Positions 47,757 to 63,915 of a DNA stretch of 64,000 bases are shown here, piece after piece (within the stretch, counting starts at the first letter, position 1; every line of letters starts with the position of its first letter). The notes below the pieces were generated by a model. It was given only the letters and a program-made list of their open reading frames with translations. It had not been told where the DNA came from and made no database searches. The stretch spans positions 1 to 64,000 of the forward strand of contig NZ_CYPR01000039.1 in NCBI RefSeq assembly GCF_001408515.1, given 5' to 3'. The translations under genes and the position numbers were made by a program. This DNA comes from Jannaschia seosinensis. Its GTDB lineage: Bacteria; Pseudomonadota; Alphaproteobacteria; Rhodobacterales; Rhodobacteraceae.

Positions 47757-48725
47757 ATGAAACATCTCATGACCGGGCTTGCCGCGGCGGCCACCCTCGC
47801 GGCGGGGACGGCGACGGCGCAGCAATCGATCGTGGTCGGCCATTCGCTGTCGCCGCAATCGCATTACGGCATCGGCGCGCAGGCCTTCATCGACACGCTG
47901 GAGGAGCTGTCGGGCGGCGAATGGACCGGCGAGCAGGCGCCCGCAGGCCAGCTCGGCGGCGAGCGTGACATGATCGAGGGGCTTCAGATCGGCTCGCTCG
48001 ACGTGGTCGTCACCTCGACCGGTCCTCTGGGCAACTTCGTGCCCGAGGTCTACGTCCTCGACCTGCCGTTCCTGTTTCGCGATTACGACCACGCGCGCGG
48101 CGTGCTCGACGGCGAGATCGGTCAGGAACTGCTCGATAGGATCGGGGAGAACGAACTGGTCGGACTGGCCTGGACGGAGAACGGGTTCCGCCACGTGACC
48201 AATTCGCAGCGTGCCGTGACGACGCCCGAGGATCTCGAGGGCCTCAAGCTGCGGACGATGGAGAACCGCGTTCACATGGAGGCGTTCAGCGATCTCGGCG
48301 CGGCGCCCACGCCGATGGCCTTTCCCGAACTCTTCACCGCCCTGCAGCAGGGCGTCGTGGACGGGCAGGAAAATCCGATCACCGTCATCTCCGCGTCGAA
48401 ATTCTGGGAGGTGCAGGATCACGTCTCGCTGACCGGACATGTCTATTCCCCGGCGGTGGTGCTGGCCTCGCCGATCCTGTTCGACGGGTTGAGCGAGGAG
48501 GAAAAGGGCTGGTTCCAGGAGGCCGCCGATGCCAGCGCCGCCGCCACGCGCGCGGAGGTCAACCGGCTGGAGGCGGAGGGCGTGGCCCTGCTGCGCGAGA
48601 ACGGGATGGAGGTCATCACCGATATCGACAAGGCGCCCTTCGCCGAAAAGGCCGAAGCGTCCTACGCGATCTATACCGACGAATACGGCACCGACATGGT
48701 CGACCGGATCAAGGCATTCGAGTGA
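47757..48725 (+). CDS. TRAP transporter solute-binding protein (DctP family)
   Basis: This 322-residue periplasmic receptor has a signal peptide to about residue 22 (AAGTATA). It contains the DctP signature with VVTSTGPLGNFVPEVYVLDLPFLF (broken by its loop) and the carboxylate-binding arginine in LRTMENRVHMEAF. VDGQENPITVI follows. Genomic context indicates four-carbon sugar acids (erythronate/threonate) as ligand. GGAGGAG precedes the ATG. A 13-bp hairpin follows the stop. Confidence 0.93.
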   Translation: MKHLMTGLAAAATLAAGTATAQQSIVVGHSLSPQSHYGIGAQAFIDTLEELSGGEWTGEQAPAGQLGGERDMIEGLQIGSLDVVVTSTGPLGNFVPEVYVLDLPFLFRDYDHARGVLDGEIGQELLDRIGENELVGLAWTENGFRHVTNSQRAVTTPEDLEGLKLRTMENRVHMEAFSDLGAAPTPMAFPELFTALQQGVVDGQENPITVISASKFWEVQDHVSLTGHVYSPAVVLASPILFDGLSEEEKGWFQEAADASAAATRAEVNRLEAEGVALLRENGMEVITDIDKAPFAEKAEASYAIYTDEYGTDMVDRIKAFE

Positions 48726-48743
48726 TCGCACGCTGACAGGATG

Positions 48744-48775
48744 ACCGGCCGGCGCGCCCCCCCGCGCCGGCCGGT
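48744..48775 (+). other. 13-bp hairpin between dctP and dctQ
   Basis: ACCGGCCGGCGCG and CGCGCCGGCCGGT pair perfectly around CCCCCC. No thymine run follows, so complete termination is unlikely. In TRAP and other binding-protein operons such intergenic stems can protect the upstream mRNA and raise receptor levels above membrane subunits. Confidence 0.7.
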
Positions 48776-48802
48776 TCGAACACCACGACGGCGGCACCCG
48801 AT

Positions 48803-49306
48803 ATGACGCGCATATTCCTGCGGCTCGAGAACATCACCACCGGCATCGCCCTGCGCGCCGCCATCGCCTTTCTGGCGATCGCCGCGGGTCTGGCCCTGTA
48901 TCAGGTCGTGACGCGTTTCGTGTTCGACGCGCCCTCCACCTGGTCTGAGGTCATCACCCGGTCGGCGATGGTGTGGTCGGTGTTTCTGGGCGTGGCCGCC
49001 GCGTTCCGCCACGGGGCCATGATCTCGGTCGACGTCATCATGAACAACCTGCCGCGCCGGCTGGGGCTGGGGTTTTTTCTGGTGGCGCACGGAGCCTCGC
49101 TCGTCTTCTTCGCGATCCTCGCATGGCAGGGATGGTTGATGACGGGCCGCGTGATGTCTCAGAACCTCGCCGCGCTCGAGATCTCGATCGCCTGGGTCTA
49201 TGCCGCTTTACCCACGGGATCCGCCTTCATCATGATCTCCATCGTCGCCGCGATGATCCGCGGCGCCAGAGGCGACTGGCCCGCGACGGCCGGGGCGGAC
49301 GCATGA
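48803..49306 (+). CDS. TRAP transporter small membrane subunit (DctQ family)
   Basis: This 167-residue protein has four predicted membrane helices. It carries the DctQ features TRFVFDAPSTWSEVITRSAMVW (split by a loop) and FRHGAMISVDVI. It connects the receptor to the large DctM permease. It ends overlapping dctM by four bases (ATGA). Confidence 0.92.
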   Translation: MTRIFLRLENITTGIALRAAIAFLAIAAGLALYQVVTRFVFDAPSTWSEVITRSAMVWSVFLGVAAAFRHGAMISVDVIMNNLPRRLGLGFFLVAHGASLVFFAILAWQGWLMTGRVMSQNLAALEISIAWVYAALPTGSAFIMISIVAAMIRGARGDWPATAGADA

Positions 49307-50583
49307 ACGCAGCGCTCGGCCTGTCACTGGCCATCCTGTTCCTGCTCGGCGTGCCGATCGCCGTCGCGATCGGCCTAGCCTCGGTCATCGGCATCGAGGC
49401 GCAGGGACGCCTGCCGCTGCTTCTGGTGGCGCAGCGGATGTTTACCGGCATCGACAGCTTTCCGCTCATGGCGATCCCGCTCTTCATCCTCGCCGGCAAC
49501 CTGATGTCGGCGGGCGGCATCTCGCAGCGGCTGGTGGCGCTGGCGAAATCCATCGTCGGCGGCGTCCAAGGCGGGCTGGCCTGCACCTGCGTCCTGACCT
49601 GCATGCTCTTCGCCTCGGTGTCGGGCTCCAGCGTGGCGACCACCTTCGCCATCGGCGCGATCCTCATCCCGGCCATGGTCACGCATGGCTATCCCCGGCC
49701 GCTCGCCGCCTCGATCCAGGCGTCGTCGGCCGAACTGGGCGTCCTGATCCCGCCGTCGATCCCGCTCATCCTCTACGGCGTCTCGACCGATACGTCGGTC
49801 GGCAAGCTCTTCATCGCCGGGCTCGGGCCGGGGCTTCTGATCGCGGCGTCGCTGATGGCGCTGGTGCTCATCCTCTGCCGGATACGCGGGATCGGGCGCG
49901 AGGACGGCGCGGGGCGCGAAGGCCTTGGGCGCGCGTTCGCCGCCGCCCTGCCCGCGCTCTTGGTGCCGGTCGTCATCCTTGGCGGGATCTATTCCGGCAT
50001 CTTCACGCCAACCGAGGCCAGCGCCGTGGCCGTCGCGGCGGCCCTCGTCGTGGGAATGGCCTTTTACCGGGAGCTTCGCGTCCGCGACCTGCCGGCGATC
50101 CTGACGCAGACGGTGATCTCGACCTCGGCCATCATGATCATCATTTCGGCGGCGGCGCTGTTTTCGTTCCTGATCACCCGGTCCGGCCTGCCCAACGACA
50201 TCGCCTCGTGGTTTCAGGGCGTCTTCGAAAGCAGGATTGCCTTTCTTCTGGTCGTGAACCTGATGCTGCTGATCGTGGGCATGTTCATCGAGACATCGGC
50301 GGCGATCCTCGTGCTCGCGCCGATCCTGACGCCGATCGCCGTCGGCTACGGGGTCGATCCGGTGCATTTCGGCCTGATCGTCGTGGTCAACCTGGCGCTT
50401 GGCATGATCACGCCGCCGCTGGGCGTGAACCTCTTCGCCGCCTGTCAGGTCGCCAACCTGCCGGTCGAGAAGATCATCCCGCAGCTTCTGTGGTTCGTCC
50501 TGACGGTCTTCGCCGCGCTGATGGTCATCACCTATGTTCCCGCCGTCTCGCTCTGGCCGGTGCAACTCATCACGGGAGGCTGA
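49303..50583 (+). CDS. TRAP transporter large permease (DctM family)
   Basis: This 426-residue permease has about twelve helices. Family marks are MFTGIDSFPLMAIPLFILAGN, ASVSGSSVATTFAIGAILIP and SSAELGVLIPPSIPLILYGV, plus NLALGMITPPLGVNLF near the end. It couples uptake to sodium or proton gradients. ATG 49303 overlaps the dctQ stop; a longer frame from 48973 merely shadows dctQ. Confidence 0.95.
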   Translation: MNAALGLSLAILFLLGVPIAVAIGLASVIGIEAQGRLPLLLVAQRMFTGIDSFPLMAIPLFILAGNLMSAGGISQRLVALAKSIVGGVQGGLACTCVLTCMLFASVSGSSVATTFAIGAILIPAMVTHGYPRPLAASIQASSAELGVLIPPSIPLILYGVSTDTSVGKLFIAGLGPGLLIAASLMALVLILCRIRGIGREDGAGREGLGRAFAAALPALLVPVVILGGIYSGIFTPTEASAVAVAAALVVGMAFYRELRVRDLPAILTQTVISTSAIMIIISAAALFSFLITRSGLPNDIASWFQGVFESRIAFLLVVNLMLLIVGMFIETSAAILVLAPILTPIAVGYGVDPVHFGLIVVVNLALGMITPPLGVNLFAACQVANLPVEKIIPQLLWFVLTVFAALMVITYVPAVSLWPVQLITGG

Positions 50584-50586
50584 CGC

Positions 50587-51471
50587 ATGATCGTTCATTT
50601 CGCCGGATTGGGGTCGATGGGGCTGGGCATGGCGCTGTCGCTCCTGCGGGCCGGGCACGAGGTGCACGGCACCGACCTTTCCGACGACCGCATGGCCCGG
50701 CTGACCGAGGCGGGCGGTCGGGCGCTGACGGCGGAATCCGGTCCGGCCGATGCGCTGATCTGCGTCGTCCTGAACGCCGAGCAGACGCGTGGCGTTTTGT
50801 TCGGGCCCGACGGGTTGGCCGCGCGCCTGCGGCCCGGCGGCGCGATCGTGTCCTGCGCAACCGTCGCCCCCGCCTTCGCGATCGAGATGGAGGCGGCGGC
50901 GGCGCGATCCGGCCTGCTCTATCTCGACGCGCCGATCTCGGGCGGGGCGGCAAAGGCGGCCGAGGGACGGCTGTCGGTCATGGCGTCCGGCAGACGCGCG
51001 GCGTTCCGCGCGGCCGCGCCCCTGCTCGACGCGATGGCCGAGACGGTTCACGATCTGGGTGACCACGCCGGACCGGGTTCGGCGATGAAGGCGGTGAACC
51101 AGCTTCTGGCGGGCACCCATATCGCCGCCATGGCCGAGGCGCTGGCCTTCGCCACGTCGCAAGGTCTGGAGCTCGGCCGCACATTCGAAGTGATCTCGGC
51201 TTCGGCCGGCACGTCCTGGATGTTCGAGAACCGCGCTCCGCATGTGATCGAGGGCGACTACGCCCCGCGCTCCAGTGTCGATATCTGGCCCAAGGATCTC
51301 GGCATCGTCGGGGCGATTGCGGCGGAAGCGGGGCTGCCCCTGCCGGTGGCCGCGGCCGCGCTGGCGCAGTTTCGGGATGCCTCGGCCGCGGGGCTGGGTG
51401 CAGAAGACGATGCCGCCCTGACCAAGCATGTCGCGGCGAAGGGCGGCGTGATCCTGCCCGGAGAGGCCTGA
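50587..51471 (+). CDS. ltnD: L-threonate dehydrogenase
   Basis: This 294-residue HIBADH-family dehydrogenase has the NAD motif GLGSMGLGMALSLLRAGHEV, the substrate loop DAPISGGAAKAAEG and the catalytic lysine in MKAVNQLLAGTHI. In tetronate clusters this is LtnD, which oxidises L-threonate to 2-oxo-tetronate. It starts four bases after dctM, and its last base is the first of the otnK start (TGATG). Confidence 0.88.
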   Translation: MIVHFAGLGSMGLGMALSLLRAGHEVHGTDLSDDRMARLTEAGGRALTAESGPADALICVVLNAEQTRGVLFGPDGLAARLRPGGAIVSCATVAPAFAIEMEAAAARSGLLYLDAPISGGAAKAAEGRLSVMASGRRAAFRAAAPLLDAMAETVHDLGDHAGPGSAMKAVNQLLAGTHIAAMAEALAFATSQGLELGRTFEVISASAGTSWMFENRAPHVIEGDYAPRSSVDIWPKDLGIVGAIAAEAGLPLPVAAAALAQFRDASAAGLGAEDDAALTKHVAAKGGVILPGEA

Positions 51472-52718
51472 TGCTTCTGGGCTGTATCGGCGACGATTTC
51501 ACCGGCTCGTCCGACCTTGGCAACACACTGACGCGGCGGGGCATGCGGTGCGTGCAATATGTGGGCGTACCGGAGGGACCGGCCACCGCGGATGTGGAGG
51601 CGGGCATCGTCGCGCTCAAATCCCGCTCCGTGCCGGTGGCCGAAGCCGTGCGCCAGTCGCTCGCCGCGCTCGACTGGCTGCGGGCGCAGGGGTGCCGGCA
51701 ATTCCTGTTCAAATATTGCTCCACCTTCGACTCGACGCCCGAAGGCAATATCGGGCCCGTGGCAGAGGCCTTGGCGAATGCCCTCGGCGCGCGCCGCGTG
51801 CTCGTCTGTCCGGCATTTCCGGCCACGGGACGCTCCGTCTATCAGGGGCACCTGTTCGTCGGCGACCGCCTCCTGAGCGAGAGCGGGATGGAGGCCCATC
51901 CCCTCACGCCGATGACCGATCCCGACCTGCGCCGGTGGCTGTCGCGGCAAGTCGGCGGAACGGTCGGCCACGTTCCCTTCGCCGACGTCGCCGCAGGCGC
52001 CGATGCCGTTCGCGCCCGAATGCGGACCGAGGATGCGGCGGGCCATCGCCTGCTGGTGGCCGATGCCATCCGCGATGCGGATCTGGAGGTGCTGGGCCGG
52101 GCGACCGCCGGGCTGCCGCTGGTGACCGGCGGCTCGGGCATCGCTCTGGGCCTGCCGGGGGTGTTTCGCGATGCGGGTCTGTTGGCGGACACGGCCGGGG
52201 CGTGGTCCGGCCAGAGCGGGCCGGCGGCGATCCTGTCGGGATCGTGCTCCCGGGCCACGCGGGCGCAGGTGGCCCGCCATGCCGAGACCGATCCCGCGCG
52301 CGAGGTTCACGCCGACGACGTGATGGCGGGCCGGATCTCTCCGGCGGAGCTGGCGGAATGGGCGCGGACGCAGGAAGGCGTGCCGCTCATCTACACCTCC
52401 GCCGATCCCGATGCCGTGCGCGCGGCGCAGGATCGCCATGGCCGTGCGGCGGTGGCCGGCGCGATCGAAGCCCTTTTCGCCGAGACGGCCCGCGCGCTGG
52501 TGGCGGCCGGGGTGACGCGCCTCGTGACGGCGGGGGGCGAGACGTCGGGCGCGGTGGTCGAGGGGCTCTCCCTCGACCGGCTCGAAATCGGCCCCGAGAT
52601 CGACCCCGGCGTGCCCATGATGCGCGCCGGCGCGGATCTGGTCCTGGCGCTCAAATCCGGCAATTTCGGCAGCCCCGACTTCTTCGCCAAGGCCGTGCGC
52701 ATGATGGAGGCCGCATGA
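51471..52718 (+). CDS. otnK: 3-oxo-tetronate kinase (DUF1537)
   Basis: This 415-residue acid-sugar kinase begins CIGDDFTGSSDLGNTL, the substrate-domain signature. It contains FKYCSTFDSTPEGNIGPVAEAL, PAFPATGRSVYQGHLF, LSGSCSRAT and TAGGETSGAVVEGL of the nucleotide-binding half. OtnK phosphorylates 3-oxo-tetronate at C4. It is coupled by overlap to ltnD and otnC. Confidence 0.93.
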   Translation: MLLGCIGDDFTGSSDLGNTLTRRGMRCVQYVGVPEGPATADVEAGIVALKSRSVPVAEAVRQSLAALDWLRAQGCRQFLFKYCSTFDSTPEGNIGPVAEALANALGARRVLVCPAFPATGRSVYQGHLFVGDRLLSESGMEAHPLTPMTDPDLRRWLSRQVGGTVGHVPFADVAAGADAVRARMRTEDAAGHRLLVADAIRDADLEVLGRATAGLPLVTGGSGIALGLPGVFRDAGLLADTAGAWSGQSGPAAILSGSCSRATRAQVARHAETDPAREVHADDVMAGRISPAELAEWARTQEGVPLIYTSADPDAVRAAQDRHGRAAVAGAIEALFAETARALVAAGVTRLVTAGGETSGAVVEGLSLDRLEIGPEIDPGVPMMRAGADLVLALKSGNFGSPDFFAKAVRMMEAA

Positions 52719-53359
52719 ACGACACGAAGCTGCGCGAGGACATCTGCCACTGGGCCGCGTCGATTTTCGAGCGGGGCCTGACGGGTGGCGCGTCCGGCAA
52801 CATCTCGGCACGGACCGAAGACGGGGGCCTGTTGGTGACGCCCACGGGCGTGAGCATGGGGCGGCTGGATCCCGCGCGCCTGTCGCAATTCGACGCCGAT
52901 GGCCGGCACATCTCGGGCGACGCGCCGACCAAGGAGATGCCGCTCCACGCCGCGTTCTACGAGACGCGGGCGTCGGCCGGTGCGGTGGTGCATCTGCATT
53001 CGACGCATTCGGTCGCCCTGTCGATGCTGCCGGAGACGGATCCGGACAACGCGCTGCCCCCGCTGACCGCCTATTCGGTGATGCGTGTGGGCAAGGTGGC
53101 GCTCTTGCCGTTCTTCGTGCCGGGCGATCCCGCGACCGCCGATGCCGTGCGCGGGCTGGCCGGGCGCCGGGCGGCCGTCCTGCTGGCCAATCACGGCCCC
53201 GTCGTCGCCTCTAGGGATCTCGAGGCGGCCGTCTTCGCGATGGAGGAGCTGGAGGAGACGGCAAAGCTGGCGCTTCTGTTGCGGGGCAGCGGCGCGCGAC
53301 CTCTGGACACGGCGCAGATCGACGCCGTCATCCGCAGATACGATCTGGAGTGGGATTGA
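52715..53359 (+). CDS. otnC: 3-oxo-tetronate 4-phosphate decarboxylase (class II aldolase)
   Basis: This 214-residue enzyme of the fuculose-aldolase fold decarboxylates the kinase product to dihydroxyacetone phosphate. It has GGASGNISART, TPTGVSMGRLDP, the zinc ligands in VVHLHSTHSVAL and the later His in LANHGPVVA. ATG 52715 overlaps otnK as ATGA; its last base is the start of otnI (TGATG). Confidence 0.92.
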   Translation: MNDTKLREDICHWAASIFERGLTGGASGNISARTEDGGLLVTPTGVSMGRLDPARLSQFDADGRHISGDAPTKEMPLHAAFYETRASAGAVVHLHSTHSVALSMLPETDPDNALPPLTAYSVMRVGKVALLPFFVPGDPATADAVRGLAGRRAAVLLANHGPVVASRDLEAAVFAMEELEETAKLALLLRGSGARPLDTAQIDAVIRRYDLEWD

Positions 53360-54138
53360 TGCGTTACGCCGCGAATCTCGGCTTTCTCTTCACCGACCTC
53401 GCCTTGCCCGATGCGGTGCGCGCCGCGGCGCAAGCGGGCTTCGACGCCGTCGAGTGTCACTTTCCCTACGAGACGCCCGTGGCCGACCTGCGCGCGGCTC
53501 TTGATGAGACCGGCCTGCGGATGCTTGCTCTCAACACCTGGCCCGGCGACCGGGACGCGGGGGAGTTCGGCCTCTGCGCCCTGCCCGGCCGGCAGGACGA
53601 CGCGCGCCGGGAAATCGCGCGGGCGGTGGATTATGCCGCCGCCGCAGGCATGGACGCCGTCCACGTGATGGCGGGCCGCACCGATGGCGGGGAGGCGGCC
53701 GATGCCTGCTTCTGCGCCAATCTGCGGTTCGCCTGCGACCTCGCCGCCGCGCGGAATCTTCGCATCCTGATCGAGCCGATCAACACGCGCGACGTGCCGG
53801 GCTATCACCTGTCGGGGACGGATCATGCCGAACGCGTCCTCGATGCGGTGCAGCACGACGCGCTCGGGCTCATGTTCGACTGCTACCACATGCAGATCAT
53901 GCAGGGCGATCTGGCGCGCACGCTCCGGCGCCTGATGCCGAGGATCGGCCATGTCCAGATCGCCGCGGTTCCCGATCGCGGGGAGCCCGACGCGGGAGAG
54001 GTGAATTATTCGTGGCTGATGCGGGAACTGGCAGAAATGGGCTATGGCGGGCATGTCGGCGCCGAATACAGACCCCGCGCCGGGGCGGGAAGCACCGCCG
54101 CGGGGCTGAGTTGGCTTTCGGCCTTCCGCGACGGCTGA
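53359..54138 (+). CDS. otnI: 2-oxo-tetronate isomerase (Hyi-like TIM barrel)
   Basis: This 259-residue xylose-isomerase-like TIM barrel resembles hydroxypyruvate isomerase. It has FDAVECHFPYE, MLALNTWPGD, the metal-site Glu in ILIEPINTRDVPGY and GLMFDCYHMQIMQGDL, then GAEYRPRAG. OtnI converts 2-oxo- to 3-oxo-tetronate, the step before the kinase. It is the last gene of the cluster. Confidence 0.91.
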   Translation: MRYAANLGFLFTDLALPDAVRAAAQAGFDAVECHFPYETPVADLRAALDETGLRMLALNTWPGDRDAGEFGLCALPGRQDDARREIARAVDYAAAAGMDAVHVMAGRTDGGEAADACFCANLRFACDLAAARNLRILIEPINTRDVPGYHLSGTDHAERVLDAVQHDALGLMFDCYHMQIMQGDLARTLRRLMPRIGHVQIAAVPDRGEPDAGEVNYSWLMRELAEMGYGGHVGAEYRPRAGAGSTAAGLSWLSAFRDG

Positions 54139-57715: not shown

Positions 57716-59539
57716 ATGTATCTCGATCATTTCGGCCTCAGGGAATTTCCCTTCCGTATTACACCCGATTCGGCCTTCCTGTTCTGGACGGCCGATCATC
57801 ACCGCGCGTTCGATCTGTTGACGCGGGTGGCGGACGGCGAAGAAGCCGGGGCCGTGACCCTCGGGGAGCCGGGAACCGGGAAGACCACGCTTCTGCGACA
57901 CTTCGTGGCGACCCGGTCCGGGGACGTCCATGTCGGCATGATCTCCAACTATTCCAGCGGGCTGGGTGGGCTGGCGCATTGGGTTCACCGGGCCTTTGGT
58001 CTGCATCCGGAGGGCGCGGACAAGAGCTTGCATGCGGAGCTTGAGGCCTTCCTCGCCACACGGCATCGCGAAGGCGTTCGTTGCCTGCTGATCGTGGACG
58101 AGGCGCAGAACGTCTCCGACGGGGATATCGCGGCGCTGGTCAAGCTTTCGCAGAGGCCGGATGCATCGCTGCGGCTGGTCCTTTCCGGGCAGCCACAATT
58201 GGCCCGCAACCCCTATGCGACGCGGATCCTCGAAGAAAGCGGAGGTTCGGCCTTTGTGCAGATCGGGCCGATGTCGCCGGAAGACGTGGCGGGATATGTC
58301 CGTCACCGCATGGCGACGGCGGGATGCCCGGATCCGATTTTCGACGACGATGCGATGGCGGATATCGCGCGGCTTTCGGGGGGTGTTCCGGGCCTCGTCA
58401 ACATCCTGTGCGAATTGTTGCTCGTCCTGGCCTTCGAAGCCGGCGCACGCAAAATCGATGCGGCGCTCGTGACGCATGCGCTGCAGGAGGCCCGGCAGAC
58501 GGGCATGCTCGATCACCTGCTCGCGCCTCCTGCAAGGACCGTTTCAAAGCCCGCGACAAAGCCGGTGCGCGAGCCGTCACCTGCCGGTGCGACGCCCGCA
58601 GATGCGGCAGCCGATCAGGCTCCGCCTCCGGCACAAGATTTCGACCTTCGGGATGAGGCGGAGGTAGAGGTGCGGGCTATGCCCGGATCGGCGACCCTGC
58701 AGGATGCCGCGCCCGATCGCGGCGCACCGCCCATCGAGGCGGGCGAGCCGCGCAAGCGGAAGGTCGGTCTTGTGTATGTTGCCGCCGGAACCGCGGCCGC
58801 CGCTGTGTTGGTAGCTGTATTCTCAATGGGGCTCGTTACGTCGCCGGAAACCGTCGTGGGGCTTCAGCCGGGTACGAATACTGGGGCGGAGGCACCCGCC
58901 GCCCTTGTGGCAACGCCGGTTGCAATCGGCGGCGCACTTCCCCCGCCGGCCTCCGTGAGGGGGAGCGAAGCCACCCTGCTCCACGATCAGGCGTTGGCGG
59001 TTGGTGCGGAGGATGCCCGCATCGCGGCAATCGGCTTCGCGCGCGCGGCTCTGCGAGGGAATGCACGCGCCGCATATTATCTGGGCCAGCATTTCGAGGT
59101 CGGCGACGGTGTGCCGCGCAATGCCGCACTCGCTGCTGCATGGTATGCGTCGGCAGCGCAGACGCAAAGAAGTGCGCGTCGCGCGCTGCAGAACCTGACG
59201 GAGACGCCCGCTACGGCCGGGGGTGTTTCCGCCGCACCGCCTCGCCCGCTGATGGGCATCGCAGGGCCGGACGAAGGCGCGGAATTCGTTTGGGCGGCGC
59301 CGGACAACGCCGCGATGCGCTATCTGGTCGAACTGGCCGAGGCCCCCGATGCGTCACCGCAGCAATTCGGACCCTTCGATCTCTCGGCGGCGTTGATCGA
59401 TCCGGTGATGCCGGCCCGCATCTGGCGCGTCGTCTCGCTCACCCCGGACGGCGCCCGGAGCGGCGTGTCGGGCTGGCACCCGATTGCAACGGAAGAAGCA
59501 GCGGCGGCTCCTGCGACCGCCGAGGTGCAACAGCCCTGA
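57716..59539 (+). CDS. ExeA-like AAA ATPase fused to a membrane helix and Sel1 repeat
   Basis: This is a 607-residue multidomain protein. It begins MYLDHFGLREFPFRITPD, the ExeA/GspA start. The AAA domain has Walker A GEPGTGKTT at 50-58, Walker B LLIVDEAQN at 124-132 and a sensor LVLSGQPQLARN. A proline/alanine linker (about 270-348) and one membrane helix (351-373) lead to an outside part with a Sel1 repeat at 450-483 (AYYLGQHFEVGDGVPRN). A C-terminal beta domain looks FnIII-like (RIWRVVSLTPDG). No GspB or secretion genes adjoin. It is convergent with the TAXI gene. Confidence 0.88.
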   Translation: MYLDHFGLREFPFRITPDSAFLFWTADHHRAFDLLTRVADGEEAGAVTLGEPGTGKTTLLRHFVATRSGDVHVGMISNYSSGLGGLAHWVHRAFGLHPEGADKSLHAELEAFLATRHREGVRCLLIVDEAQNVSDGDIAALVKLSQRPDASLRLVLSGQPQLARNPYATRILEESGGSAFVQIGPMSPEDVAGYVRHRMATAGCPDPIFDDDAMADIARLSGGVPGLVNILCELLLVLAFEAGARKIDAALVTHALQEARQTGMLDHLLAPPARTVSKPATKPVREPSPAGATPADAAADQAPPPAQDFDLRDEAEVEVRAMPGSATLQDAAPDRGAPPIEAGEPRKRKVGLVYVAAGTAAAAVLVAVFSMGLVTSPETVVGLQPGTNTGAEAPAALVATPVAIGGALPPPASVRGSEATLLHDQALAVGAEDARIAAIGFARAALRGNARAAYYLGQHFEVGDGVPRNAALAAAWYASAAQTQRSARRALQNLTETPATAGGVSAAPPRPLMGIAGPDEGAEFVWAAPDNAAMRYLVELAEAPDASPQQFGPFDLSAALIDPVMPARIWRVVSLTPDGARSGVSGWHPIATEEAAAAPATAEVQQP

Positions 59540-59577
59540 CTACAGAAGGCCGCGCCGCCTCCAGCTTCACGCTCGGG

Positions 59578-60630
59578 TCAGCAGCCGACGGCGGAGCAGA
59601 TTTCCCGGCGATAGACGCGGTTCACCGAGCTTTCGGCCGCCGCGGGAGCGGCCGCGCCACCTTCGCAACGCAACTCGTAGCTCGGGCTCAGTCCGGTATT
59701 GACGCAATTTCCTACGTCCCAACCCGGCGGCAGGTCGGTCAGATCGACCTGTTGCCATTTCGGATGCCCGTTTTCCTGCAGATCGCGGAATCGCGTGCTG
59801 ATCACATGGGCGACGTCCGAGACGGCCTGACAGCTTTCGGCGTGATACGCGTTGCGCCGGGGATTGTATTCGTAGGTCATCAGGACGGCTTTCACCGCGA
59901 CGACGTCGACGGGATCGGATTGAAACGGATAGGTGCCCGCCGGAATGGATGTCTCCTGGTAAACCGCCTGCAACGTCGGGTCGGTGACCGGAAGCAGGTG
60001 GAACCGTTCCGCGTCAATCTGCGGCGACTCGAAAATCGAGGTCGGCGCACCGGCGACGTAGAAGAAGGCGTCGATCTCGTCGGCCAGCAGCTGATCCAGG
60101 GAATCGTCGGCGCTGAGCATCACCCGCTCGCTCGGCTCCACTTCCGCGAGATCGAGGACGAGCGACGCGGTCAGGAAGGTACCGCTGTCCTCCACCCCGA
60201 TCGACACGCGCTGCCCCGTCAGATCCTGCAGCGTCTCGATGTCGCGGCGCGCCAGCACATGCACCTCTTCGTTATAGAGCGGAAAAGCGATCCGCACGCC
60301 GGCGACGGCGCGTGCAAGCTCCTCATCCTCGGCCGCGAAGGTGTTGAGGTATTCCAGAACATCCGACTGCACGATGGCGAACTGGGTGTGGGGACGCGCC
60401 CGAACGCCGAGGAAGTTTTCCAGCGATCCGGCGCTTTCGCGGACCTTGAGCGTGACGTCGCATTTCTCCGCGGCGTCTGAGATGTCGCGTCCGAACTGGA
60501 TGTAGGTCCCGGTCGGCCCGCCGGTCAGGATGTTGCGTTCGAACCCCTGTGCGGCCAGAGGCCCGGTCAGCCCGACCATACCCAACGCGGCCATGCAGGC
60601 TCCGGTCAGAGCAGCTCCAAATCCCTTCAT
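59578..60630 (-). CDS. TAXI-family solute-binding protein
   Basis: This 350-residue exported protein has a signal peptide ending near GPLAAQ (about 29). The TAXI fold has ILTGGPTGTYIQFGRDI, ESAGSLENFLGVRARPHTQFAIVQSD (split by a loop) and RRDIETLQDLTGQRVSIGVEDSGT. No TRAP permease lies nearby. The C-terminal third carries six cysteines, counting one near residue 57 (EKCDV): SCQAV, GNCVN, LRCEGG and EICSAVGC. ATG 60630 has AAGGA upstream. It may act as a sensor-like binding protein rather than for transport. Confidence 0.87.
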   Translation of the reverse strand: MKGFGAALTGACMAALGMVGLTGPLAAQGFERNILTGGPTGTYIQFGRDISDAAEKCDVTLKVRESAGSLENFLGVRARPHTQFAIVQSDVLEYLNTFAAEDEELARAVAGVRIAFPLYNEEVHVLARRDIETLQDLTGQRVSIGVEDSGTFLTASLVLDLAEVEPSERVMLSADDSLDQLLADEIDAFFYVAGAPTSIFESPQIDAERFHLLPVTDPTLQAVYQETSIPAGTYPFQSDPVDVVAVKAVLMTYEYNPRRNAYHAESCQAVSDVAHVISTRFRDLQENGHPKWQQVDLTDLPPGWDVGNCVNTGLSPSYELRCEGGAAAPAAAESSVNRVYRREICSAVGC

Positions 60631-60659
60631 CTCGCGCTTCCTTCTCCTGGCGGTGACGC

Positions 60660-62489
60660 TCAACACGTCCCGAGCATCCTGACCAGCGCGACAAGCGTCT
60701 GGCGATTTATCGTCCCGAAGGTGTCGCGCAGCGCATTGGTCGGGCAGGCGCCGTCATTCAACAATTCGGTCAACTCACGCATTTCGGTCGAGTTGCGAGG
60801 TGGCAAACCGGGGGCGGAGGCAAGCGCCGCCGAAACCATACCGGGATTGCGCGCGGCGGACGCTTGGGCCGGTTCCGGCTCCGGCTCCGGCTCCGGTACA
60901 GCGGCGATCTCCGCTTCCGCCTCGGCGATCTGCGTGTCCAGATCCGACAGCTCGGCCGCACGCGCGGCGCGATCCTGCTCCAACCGCTCCACCTCTGCCC
61001 CGAGCTCCGAGCGGCGGTCTTCCAAGTCCGACAGGTCGGCCTGCGCTGCGACGACCTGGTTCGTCAGCGCCTCCGTCTCTTCCGCAAGTTCCGCCATCGC
61101 GTCGCGGCGATCGGCTTCCTGCGCGCCGGCTTCGGCGAGGGACTCGACGGCCTCGGCCAGTTCCGCCTGCAACTCGGCCAGCGCGGATTGCCGCTCCGAG
61201 CGCAGAGTTTCAACGTTCTCCTCCAGCTCCAGGCGTTCCGCGCGCAATGTGGCGACCTGCTGGTCCAATTCGGCCCGCGCCTCCTGTACGCCGTTCAAGC
61301 GGTCGGTTTCCTGCTCGATCTCTGTGCGCAGGGCCCCGAGCGCATCCCGCGACTCCGCCAGCTCCGCGATGACACGCGCCGCCTCGGCTTCGGCGGCCGC
61401 GCCCTCGGCGATCGTCGCGCGCAGATTTTCGACTTCGGAAGCAAGGGCCGCGCGCTCCGCCTCGGCCTCGGCCCGTGCAGCATCGATGGTTTCCAGCGCC
61501 TGCTGCGCCTCGGCCAGCGCGCTCTGCGCCGCGTCACGGCGGGCAGCGAGGTCCTCGACCTCCGCCTGCACCGCCTCGCTCTGCGTCTCCGCCTCGCTCA
61601 GACGGGCCGTAACCCGGTCGAGTTCCTGCTCACGGGCCAGAAGTTCCTCATCGCGCAGGTCGATCTGGCGCAGTAGTTCGGCCTCTTCGCTCCGCAGGTC
61701 TTCCAACGTGGTGCGCGCCGGCTCCAGTTCCGCCAGAATGCTGTCGAGCGCCTCCTGCCGGGCGGCGGATTCCGCCGCGAAACCCTCGCGCGTCGCCTCG
61801 GCGGCCGCGACTTCTGCCTGTATCTCGCCCATACGCGCCTCGGCCGCTTCTCGGGTCGCCTCGGCGCTTTCCAACGCGGCGCGGCTTGCCGTCAGATCAT
61901 CGGCCAGCGCCGCCCGTTCGGCCTCCTGCGCCGCCAGGATCCGGTCGCGCTCCGCACGGGCGCCCGCCACCTCTGCGCGCAAGGTCGCGGCTTCGTCCTG
62001 AAGCGCCTGGCGCGCCTGCTGCGCTTCGGCGACATCTGCCGCCAAGGCATCGCGCTCTGCCTGAAGCTCGGCCAGTTCCGCCTGCGTCTCGCCGAGCGCC
62101 TCGTCGTCCGGCATCGCGGCGCTGGTGGCCGCGATTTCCGCCTCCAGTTGCGCCTGCTGGTCCTGCAGATCGGCCAAACGAGCCGTGGCCGCCGTCTCGG
62201 CCTGCTGCAACTCCGCAATCTGTGCCTGCAGGGCGCCGGTCTCCTGGTTGGCCTGTTCCAGCGCGCCCGCCTCGGCATCGCGCGCCGCCGTCAAATCGGC
62301 GAGCTCGTCCTCCAACAGCGCGATTTCTTCTTCCAGCATCGCGATCACGCGCCGGAAGGAGGCCGCCTGTTCCGAGGGAGACGCCTCTCCCGCGCTGTCC
62401 ACGTCGTCGTTCTGGGCAAGAGTGGCTGTCGGCACGGCGAAAGTCGCAAGCGACAGGCAGAACAGGGCGGGAATTAGGCGCTGCGGCAT
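60660..62489 (-). CDS. Large exported coiled-coil protein
   Basis: The 609-residue product has a signal peptide ending near TATLAQ (about 25). Almost uninterrupted heptads rich in Ala, Glu, Gln and Leu run from about 40 to 530. A short Pro/Glu tract (PEPEPEPEPAQ) precedes a C-terminal cap of about 45 residues containing two cysteines (NDGACPTNALRDTFG and RMLGTC). I do not recognise a named family. Its stop lies 29 bases before the TAXI start on the same strand, so the two are likely one operon. The GAGGG site supports ATG 62489. Confidence 0.75.
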   Translation of the reverse strand: MPQRLIPALFCLSLATFAVPTATLAQNDDVDSAGEASPSEQAASFRRVIAMLEEEIALLEDELADLTAARDAEAGALEQANQETGALQAQIAELQQAETAATARLADLQDQQAQLEAEIAATSAAMPDDEALGETQAELAELQAERDALAADVAEAQQARQALQDEAATLRAEVAGARAERDRILAAQEAERAALADDLTASRAALESAEATREAAEARMGEIQAEVAAAEATREGFAAESAARQEALDSILAELEPARTTLEDLRSEEAELLRQIDLRDEELLAREQELDRVTARLSEAETQSEAVQAEVEDLAARRDAAQSALAEAQQALETIDAARAEAEAERAALASEVENLRATIAEGAAAEAEAARVIAELAESRDALGALRTEIEQETDRLNGVQEARAELDQQVATLRAERLELEENVETLRSERQSALAELQAELAEAVESLAEAGAQEADRRDAMAELAEETEALTNQVVAAQADLSDLEDRRSELGAEVERLEQDRAARAAELSDLDTQIAEAEAEIAAVPEPEPEPEPAQASAARNPGMVSAALASAPGLPPRNSTEMRELTELLNDGACPTNALRDTFGTINRQTLVALVRMLGTC

Positions 62490-63838: not shown

Positions 63839-63915
63839 GGTCCCGTGGCTCAACTGGATAGAGCAGCCCCCTCCTAAGGGGCAGGTTGCAGGTTCGAATC
63901 CTGCCGGGATCACCA
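63839..63915 (+). tRNA. tRNA-Arg (anticodon CCT)
   Basis: Acceptor GGTCCCG pairs with CGGGATC (one G-U). The anticodon arm is GCCCC-CTCCTAA-GGGGC with anticodon CCT. The T arm GCAGG-TTCGAAT-CCTGC is complete, and the discriminator A is followed by encoded CCA. It reads AGG codons. tRNA-Arg(CCT) genes are common integration sites, but too little downstream sequence is present to judge. Confidence 0.96.

Follow-up and report, generated by a model that had tools for sequence, protein, structure and literature searches.

The window (the whole stretch of DNA analysed, 64,000 nucleotides of contig NZ_CYPR01000039.1 from the 3.83 Mb genome of Jannaschia seosinensis) carries at 57716-62489 three genes that encode an ExeA-like AAA ATPase, an orphan TAXI solute-binding protein and an exported coiled-coil (CC) protein. 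We found that the CC and TAXI genes form the core of a recurring module, with the ATPase as an optional third member. We regard it as very nearly certain that CC and TAXI genuinely function as a unit. Our reading of the whole, offered tentatively, is that of a periplasmic glutamate-type receptor on a CC scaffold, to which some lineages couple an inner-membrane ATPase.

The three genes lie where the first-pass annotation, made from the sequence of the window, had placed them. The ATPase gene (57716..59539, plus strand; 607 amino acids) is convergent with the TAXI gene (59578..60630, minus strand; 350 amino acids), and 38 bp separate their stop codons. The CC gene (60660..62489, minus strand; 609 amino acids) precedes TAXI on the common strand, with 29 bp from its stop codon to the TAXI start and a plausible ribosome-binding site ahead of TAXI; the two genes are predicted to be one operon. 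A bidirectional terminator between the convergent genes was considered and rejected: the gap between the two stop codons holds no terminator-like hairpin (z = 0.99). Among the gene families scanned, no permease stands beside the pair in the window. The permease nearest to the locus, DctM (48973-50580), has its own DctP-type binding protein directly upstream, and the earlier statement that no transporter permease is present is true of the locus.

To follow the module through other genomes, we used two samples. A pattern search plus tblastn with four TAXI orthologues gave 151 candidate loci, and the best 80 of these 151, all from species other than the window's, were analysed: 35 Rhodobacterales-type loci (L069-L103, with L072 from an alphaproteobacterial metagenome-assembled genome) and 45 mostly Rhizobiales loci (L104-L148). 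The second sample comprised 248 genomes of the family, one per genus, searched with profiles of the TAXI subfamily (A1, E <= 1e-60), the full-length ATPase (A2), the outer Sel1-FnIII region of the ATPase (A3, E <= 1e-15) and the conserved C-terminal domain of the CC protein (CC-CTD, A4); the best 8, 5, 14 and 24 candidates per genome were scored, respectively, and diverged copies may be missed.

The pairing proved strict in both samples. Of the 80 loci, 79 have a CC gene immediately upstream of TAXI, called through the C-terminus profile in 67 and by reading the gene and its Cys-ending tail in 12; the exception, L104, is cut by a contig end 245 bp upstream of TAXI. In the family sample, separate searches found the TAXI subfamily in 10 of 248 genomes and the CC-CTD in the same 10 and none else. 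The two genes always share contig and strand in these genomes and are 33-83 bp apart. (One genome of the sample, G189, has one internal stop in its TAXI match.) Within the window's genus, 3 of 19 other genomes (G007, G011 and G017) have TAXI orthologues of 64-80% identity, each with a CC gene upstream. The module is patchy (10/248), yet it is inherited as a unit. Two pairs are borne on plasmids, one in Rhodobacter sp. CZR27 with no ATPase adjacent, the other in Paracoccus seriniphilus together with an AAA family ATPase known from annotation alone. A class-wide search for the CC-CTD, scoring the best 15 candidates per genome, found it in 2 of 385 genomes; it says little on Rhizobiales, because the sample is spread over many families. 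At L141, a metagenome-assembled genome labelled Rhodospirillales carries a CC-TAXI pair with a Rhodobacterales-type TAXI tail ending in Cys, a hint of transfer between orders or of a mislabelled bin.

The window's TAXI protein scores 125.7 bits against TIGR02122, over the cut-off of 84.35, which bears out its earlier description as a TAXI receptor, and all 16 members of alignment A5 match this model at E <= 0.001. Its Cys residues 57, 267, 309 and 322 are invariant, and its tail reads ...ICSAVGC. According to the study of the Vibrio cholerae protein VcGluP, this binding protein contacts L-glutamate by the side chains of Y45, S75, Q93, E125 and Y200, the largest fall in affinity follows loss of Y45 or Q93, and an equivalent of Y200 occurs in only 20% of the TAXIs aligned there (PMC11574862). 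By alignment to 8S4J, with a numbering offset of 28 worked by hand, the five residues correspond to Y43, S69, Q88, E121 and Y191 of the window protein. All five are present in 80/80 orthologues, versus 6/26 other TAXIs from relatives.

The genes that follow TAXI add to this picture. A convergent gene family of 469 amino acids comes first downstream of TAXI in 33 of the 45 mostly Rhizobiales loci (L106, L115 and L138 have less than 1.2 kb downstream of TAXI). Its member at L105 is a glutamine synthetase, with P-II beyond (L105:11120-12952). The neighbour fits the glutamate theme; common descent of the region is an alternative explanation. The five-residue glutamate site in every orthologue and this glutamine-synthetase adjacency are new here. 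The TAXI protein may bind L-glutamate or a close analogue, judging from its residues. The first-pass annotation had suggested an envelope machine or a sensing device. That stays a suggestion, and within it the invariant glutamate-type site would favour ligand sensing or capture.

The CC protein has a hydrophobic period of 3.50, with a power of 19.8 against a maximum of 7.1 in 300 shuffles. Six of seven CC proteins exceed their own shuffle maximum in this heptad test; the one from L069 does not. With a signal peptide judged by eye (residues ~1-25), the earlier label of an exported coiled coil stands, and only the word "giant" is too strong for 609 amino acids. The CC-CTD (60663..60869, minus strand; alignment A4) consists of four helices and has two invariant Cys residues, the last at the very C-terminus. 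Its AlphaFold2 model (pLDDT 88.0) has no PDB match at E <= 0.001, and the domain of the window protein matches nothing in Pfam or NCBIfam. By eye, the start of the CC protein at L118:8854-9921 (Rhizobium) resembles an uncleaved membrane anchor, not a signal peptide, and this protein may therefore be anchored in the inner membrane.

In contrast to the strict pair, the ATPase is not obligate. The question raised with the first annotation, whether the three genes co-occur elsewhere, has a divided answer: comparison of open reading frames, together with profiles, revealed in 17 of the 35 Rhodobacterales-type loci a diverged ATPase with this architecture that meets TAXI tail to tail, its stop codon 0-232 bp from that of TAXI, amid surrounding genes that differ (at L098 only 715 bp can be read on the ATPase side). 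In the family sample the full-length ATPase occurs in 4 of 248 genomes; all 4 are within the 10 that bear the pair and all are tail to tail (Fisher p = 1.4e-6, not corrected for descent; all Fisher values given here ignore shared descent). The Sel1-FnIII region occurs in 5 of 248, namely the 4 triad genomes plus G126, a genome without the pair. ATPase and TAXI run in parallel in their pairwise identities (r = 0.88, with 0/5000 permutations as high), a correlation that species descent alone could give. Neither in 60 relatives nor in the other 19 genomes of the genus had single-sequence BLAST with the window's ATPase found a full-length match; its matches were confined to AAA domains of 30-37% identity. 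The resulting notion of an unlinked gene was overturned by the comparison of TAXI loci: BLAST misses most linked copies, which are only 28-56% identical to the window's ATPase. With the same arrangement in 17 loci from other species, a sequence artefact or chance neighbours can be rejected. Beyond CC, TAXI and ATPase no gene family is conserved beside the triad in the 17 loci. We conclude that no secretion system is attached at these loci, and the question whether the ATPase belongs to a known one in relatives is to that extent answered in the negative.

The architecture of the ATPase agrees with most of what had been read from its sequence. The AAA part (residues ~1-270) matches AAA_22 in Pfam at E = 2.3e-16; the best-matching curated model is TIGR03015, at 139.9 bits and under its cut-off of 324.5. 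A Pro-rich linker follows, and then a hydrophobic stretch at 350-368, the membrane helix of the annotation, with four Lys or Arg residues before it and none after. This charge pattern fits the topology proposed earlier, which would have the AAA domain in the cytoplasm and the Sel1-FnIII region outside, and 14 of 17 aligned ATPases have more positive charge N-terminal of the helix. The outer region (58997..59536, plus strand; alignment A3), predicted to be periplasmic, was described at first pass as Sel1 plus FnIII-like. The Sel1 repeat (450-482) is detected at E = 5.2e-6, its 27.3 bits being below the Pfam gathering score of 30.7. For the last domain there is no Pfam match, and its FnIII fold (~510-584) comes from an AlphaFold2 model of residues 428-607, built from 15 relatives (mean pLDDT 88.3), that has four helices and then a beta sandwich. 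FnIII domains are its best PDB matches in Foldseek (probability 1.00, best E 2.0e-4, 6 at E <= 0.001).

We also compared the ATPase with its relatives. In a tree of AAA domains with 47 rows, the 22 Sel1-FnIII ATPases are not part of the branch formed by 24 of the 25 ordinary ExeA-like relatives; the one relative missing from that branch is a long-branch row, L026. The Walker A Lys is kept in 16 of 17 aligned ATPases and also in L083. A PDB profile search returned Sel1 proteins and generic AAA or P-loop proteins only. A defence system was rejected, the PADLOC matches being weak and for coiled coil and P-loop only, as was a phage origin, the PHROGs matches being to generic AAA, Sel1 and TAXI-like families. 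The ATPase at L072:11262-13706 extends further at its C-terminus, where it matches LytR_C weakly and below threshold (E = 0.02), and by eye the ends of stand-alone Sel1-FnIII proteins of L065 and L066 resemble it. These two, with those of L067 and L193, lack AAA, have N-termini that look leader-like by eye and are unlinked to the module; the one of L193 sits among polysaccharide genes.

Starting from the gene association, the domain make-up, the conserved ligand-site residues and the absence of a linked permease, we infer a ligand, a physical complex, a direction of signalling and an output. The orphan TAXI protein would capture L-glutamate or a close analogue in the periplasm. The long exported CC protein, via its conserved CC-CTD, would hold or display the receptor within the envelope. 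An inner-membrane ATPase, encoded at about half of the Rhodobacterales-type loci, would join there, its outer Sel1-FnIII region docking on the CC-TAXI assembly. Its inner ExeA-type AAA domain would be the effector, ligand-driven closure of TAXI outside being coupled to the state of the ATPase inside. As its output, the device would probably control or assemble a structure of the envelope. The best guess here is surface polysaccharide, since unlinked Sel1-FnIII relatives adjoin polysaccharide genes in 3 of 9 regions: a glycosyltransferase (L192), a Wzz-type protein (L193) and a polysaccharide flippase (L194). Spelled out as an undescribed ligand-gated trans-envelope machine, in which a transport-detached TAXI glutamate receptor acts through a CC rod on the Sel1-FnIII region of the ATPase and the ATPase in turn switches envelope assembly, for example of surface polysaccharide, the proposal becomes doubtful.

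Several observations weigh against a receptor coupled to an ATPase. The TAXI pocket differs from that of VcGluP at Y46 (I44), H123 (Y119) and M201 (V192), and with these differences an analogue may be the ligand. The charge flanking the membrane helix is reversed or weak in 3 of 17 ATPases (L072, L073 and L100), the Walker B acidic pair is altered in 5 of 17, and one Walker A Lys is replaced by Arg. Of the 35 Rhodobacterales-type loci, 17 have no ATPase next to the pair although 4 kb or more of sequence can be read there, and none was seen beside the pair in the 45 mostly Rhizobiales loci. In the window's genus the ATPase adjoins the pair in one of four pair-bearing genomes, the window's own, with no ATPase near the pair in G007, G011 or G017. 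Sel1-FnIII ATPases are also found away from the pair, and four non-triad genomes (L078, L084, L099 and L101) have a Sel1-FnIII relative elsewhere. Moreover, profiles A2-A4 were made from linked loci, a bias towards detecting linked copies. Finally, a TRAP-fused permease is encoded in 13 of 13 pair-bearing genomes tested.

This last point favours an uptake accessory, in which TAXI would feed an unlinked permease (a TAXI-TRAP QM or another) and the CC protein would only tether or dimerise TAXI, much as the helical domain of BP0403 does for TAXI-GltS. The glutamate-type site of all 80 orthologues and the glnA gene beside the pair in most of the mainly Rhizobiales loci suit such a role, and so does BP0403 itself, which its study presents as a TAXI that is dimeric through helices and serves a non-TRAP carrier (PMC12344293). 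Against it, the gene families conserved next to the pair across the 80 loci include no permease, as far as families were scanned. GltS (PF03616) was rejected as the partner: it is present in 3 of 10 pair-bearing genomes of the family versus 27 of 238 others (Fisher p = 0.11), and it was not found in the window's genome. Nor do the TRAP-fused permeases appear to want for a binding protein: of 10 places in four pair-bearing genomes, 9 have their own TAXI alongside, and the tenth is a fragment that showed no TAXI. That the module borrows a permease for uptake is possible but unsupported, with a permease in every genome tested yet a TAXI of its own at nearly every place, and it leaves the ATPase unexplained. 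We consider it unlikely.

A machine centred on the ATPase, akin in its work to ExeA/GspA and with the TAXI fold as a structural or wall-peptide-binding element rather than a sensor, appears less probable still; D-glutamate is a component of murein. ExeA, an AAA ATPase with a single membrane helix, attaches to peptidoglycan on the outer side and powers the assembly of the secretin (PMC4098917). The module's ATPase has an AAA part in common with this type, and the polysaccharide genes beside relatives of its outer region would suit an assembly role. It has no peptidoglycan-binding domain (Pfam, E <= 0.1), however, in most places the pair is whole and has no ATPase, and the TAXI ligand site is conserved, not degraded. 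Least probable, to our minds, is that only the pair is functional and the ATPase a neighbour of convenience kept by convergent linkage. Convergent orientation, separate transcription, patchy presence and unlinked copies all speak for this, as does the diversity of the ATPase (mean pairwise identity 0.31 versus 0.62 for TAXI); the 17 tail-to-tail cases amid changing surroundings speak against it, as does the exact placing of all four full-length ATPases of the family sample.

Two neighbouring features of the window complete the description. The DctM permease belongs to a sugar-acid operon (47757-54135) of a DctP-type TRAP binding protein, DctM, a dehydrogenase, a four-carbon-acid-kinase-like protein (SBD_N/NBD_C) and an isomerase-like protein, which is separate from the CC-TAXI-ATPase module. 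A tRNA-Arg lies at 63839-63915, 1.35 kb past the CC gene of this patchily distributed module, and may mark an integration site.

The first-pass annotation knew of no described system of this composition, and the open-access literature, outside which most subscription journals lie, agrees: TAXI-TRAP, TAXI-GltS and orphan solute-binding proteins in general are described there, and the CC-TAXI-ATPase set was not found. The set is probably an undescribed cell-envelope device. TAXI proteins are treated as TRAP-transporter binding subunits; here, a large alphaproteobacterial TAXI subfamily (151 candidate loci by tblastn) has the full glutamate-type pocket and, as its partner, a CC protein and not a permease. 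If sensing is true, this would be a route to read extracellular or wall-derived glutamate; if transport is true, a new type of uptake accessory. Either way, the three genes are a compact target open to experiment, with a CC-CTD that lacks a Pfam, NCBIfam or PDB (E <= 0.001) match.

Among known systems, TAXI-TRAP (VcGluPQM of V. cholerae) shares the binding-protein family TIGR02122 and the same five glutamate-contact residues; unlike it, the module has no linked QM permease, and the CC protein takes that place in the operon. TAXI-GltS (BP0403 of Bordetella pertussis) likewise combines a TAXI unlinked to TRAP, a glutamate-type site and a long helical element. That element lies within BP0403 itself, whereas the module encodes the helices as a distinct protein that is much longer and has a C-terminal domain of its own, and there is no gltS at the locus. 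With ExeA/GspA, the ATPase of secretin assembly in type II secretion, the module's ATPase shares an AAA domain inside, one membrane helix and a periplasmic domain, which is Sel1-FnIII instead of peptidoglycan-binding; a scan of genes near the locus, though not of the whole genome, showed no ExeB or type II secretion gene. The XrtA/PEP-CTERM ATPase provides the best curated model for the AAA part (TIGR03015), although the score is far under its cut-off and the Sel1-FnIII ATPases stand outside the ordinary ExeA-like branch. ExoR is the periplasmic Sel1-repeat regulator of ExoS-ChvI and of surface polysaccharide in Rhizobiales; its periplasmic Sel1 repeats offer an analogy only, and it has no ATPase, TAXI or coiled coil. 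The three proteins of the module are all members of known families or include one; an ATPase of the envelope that is gated by a ligand would count as a new kind.

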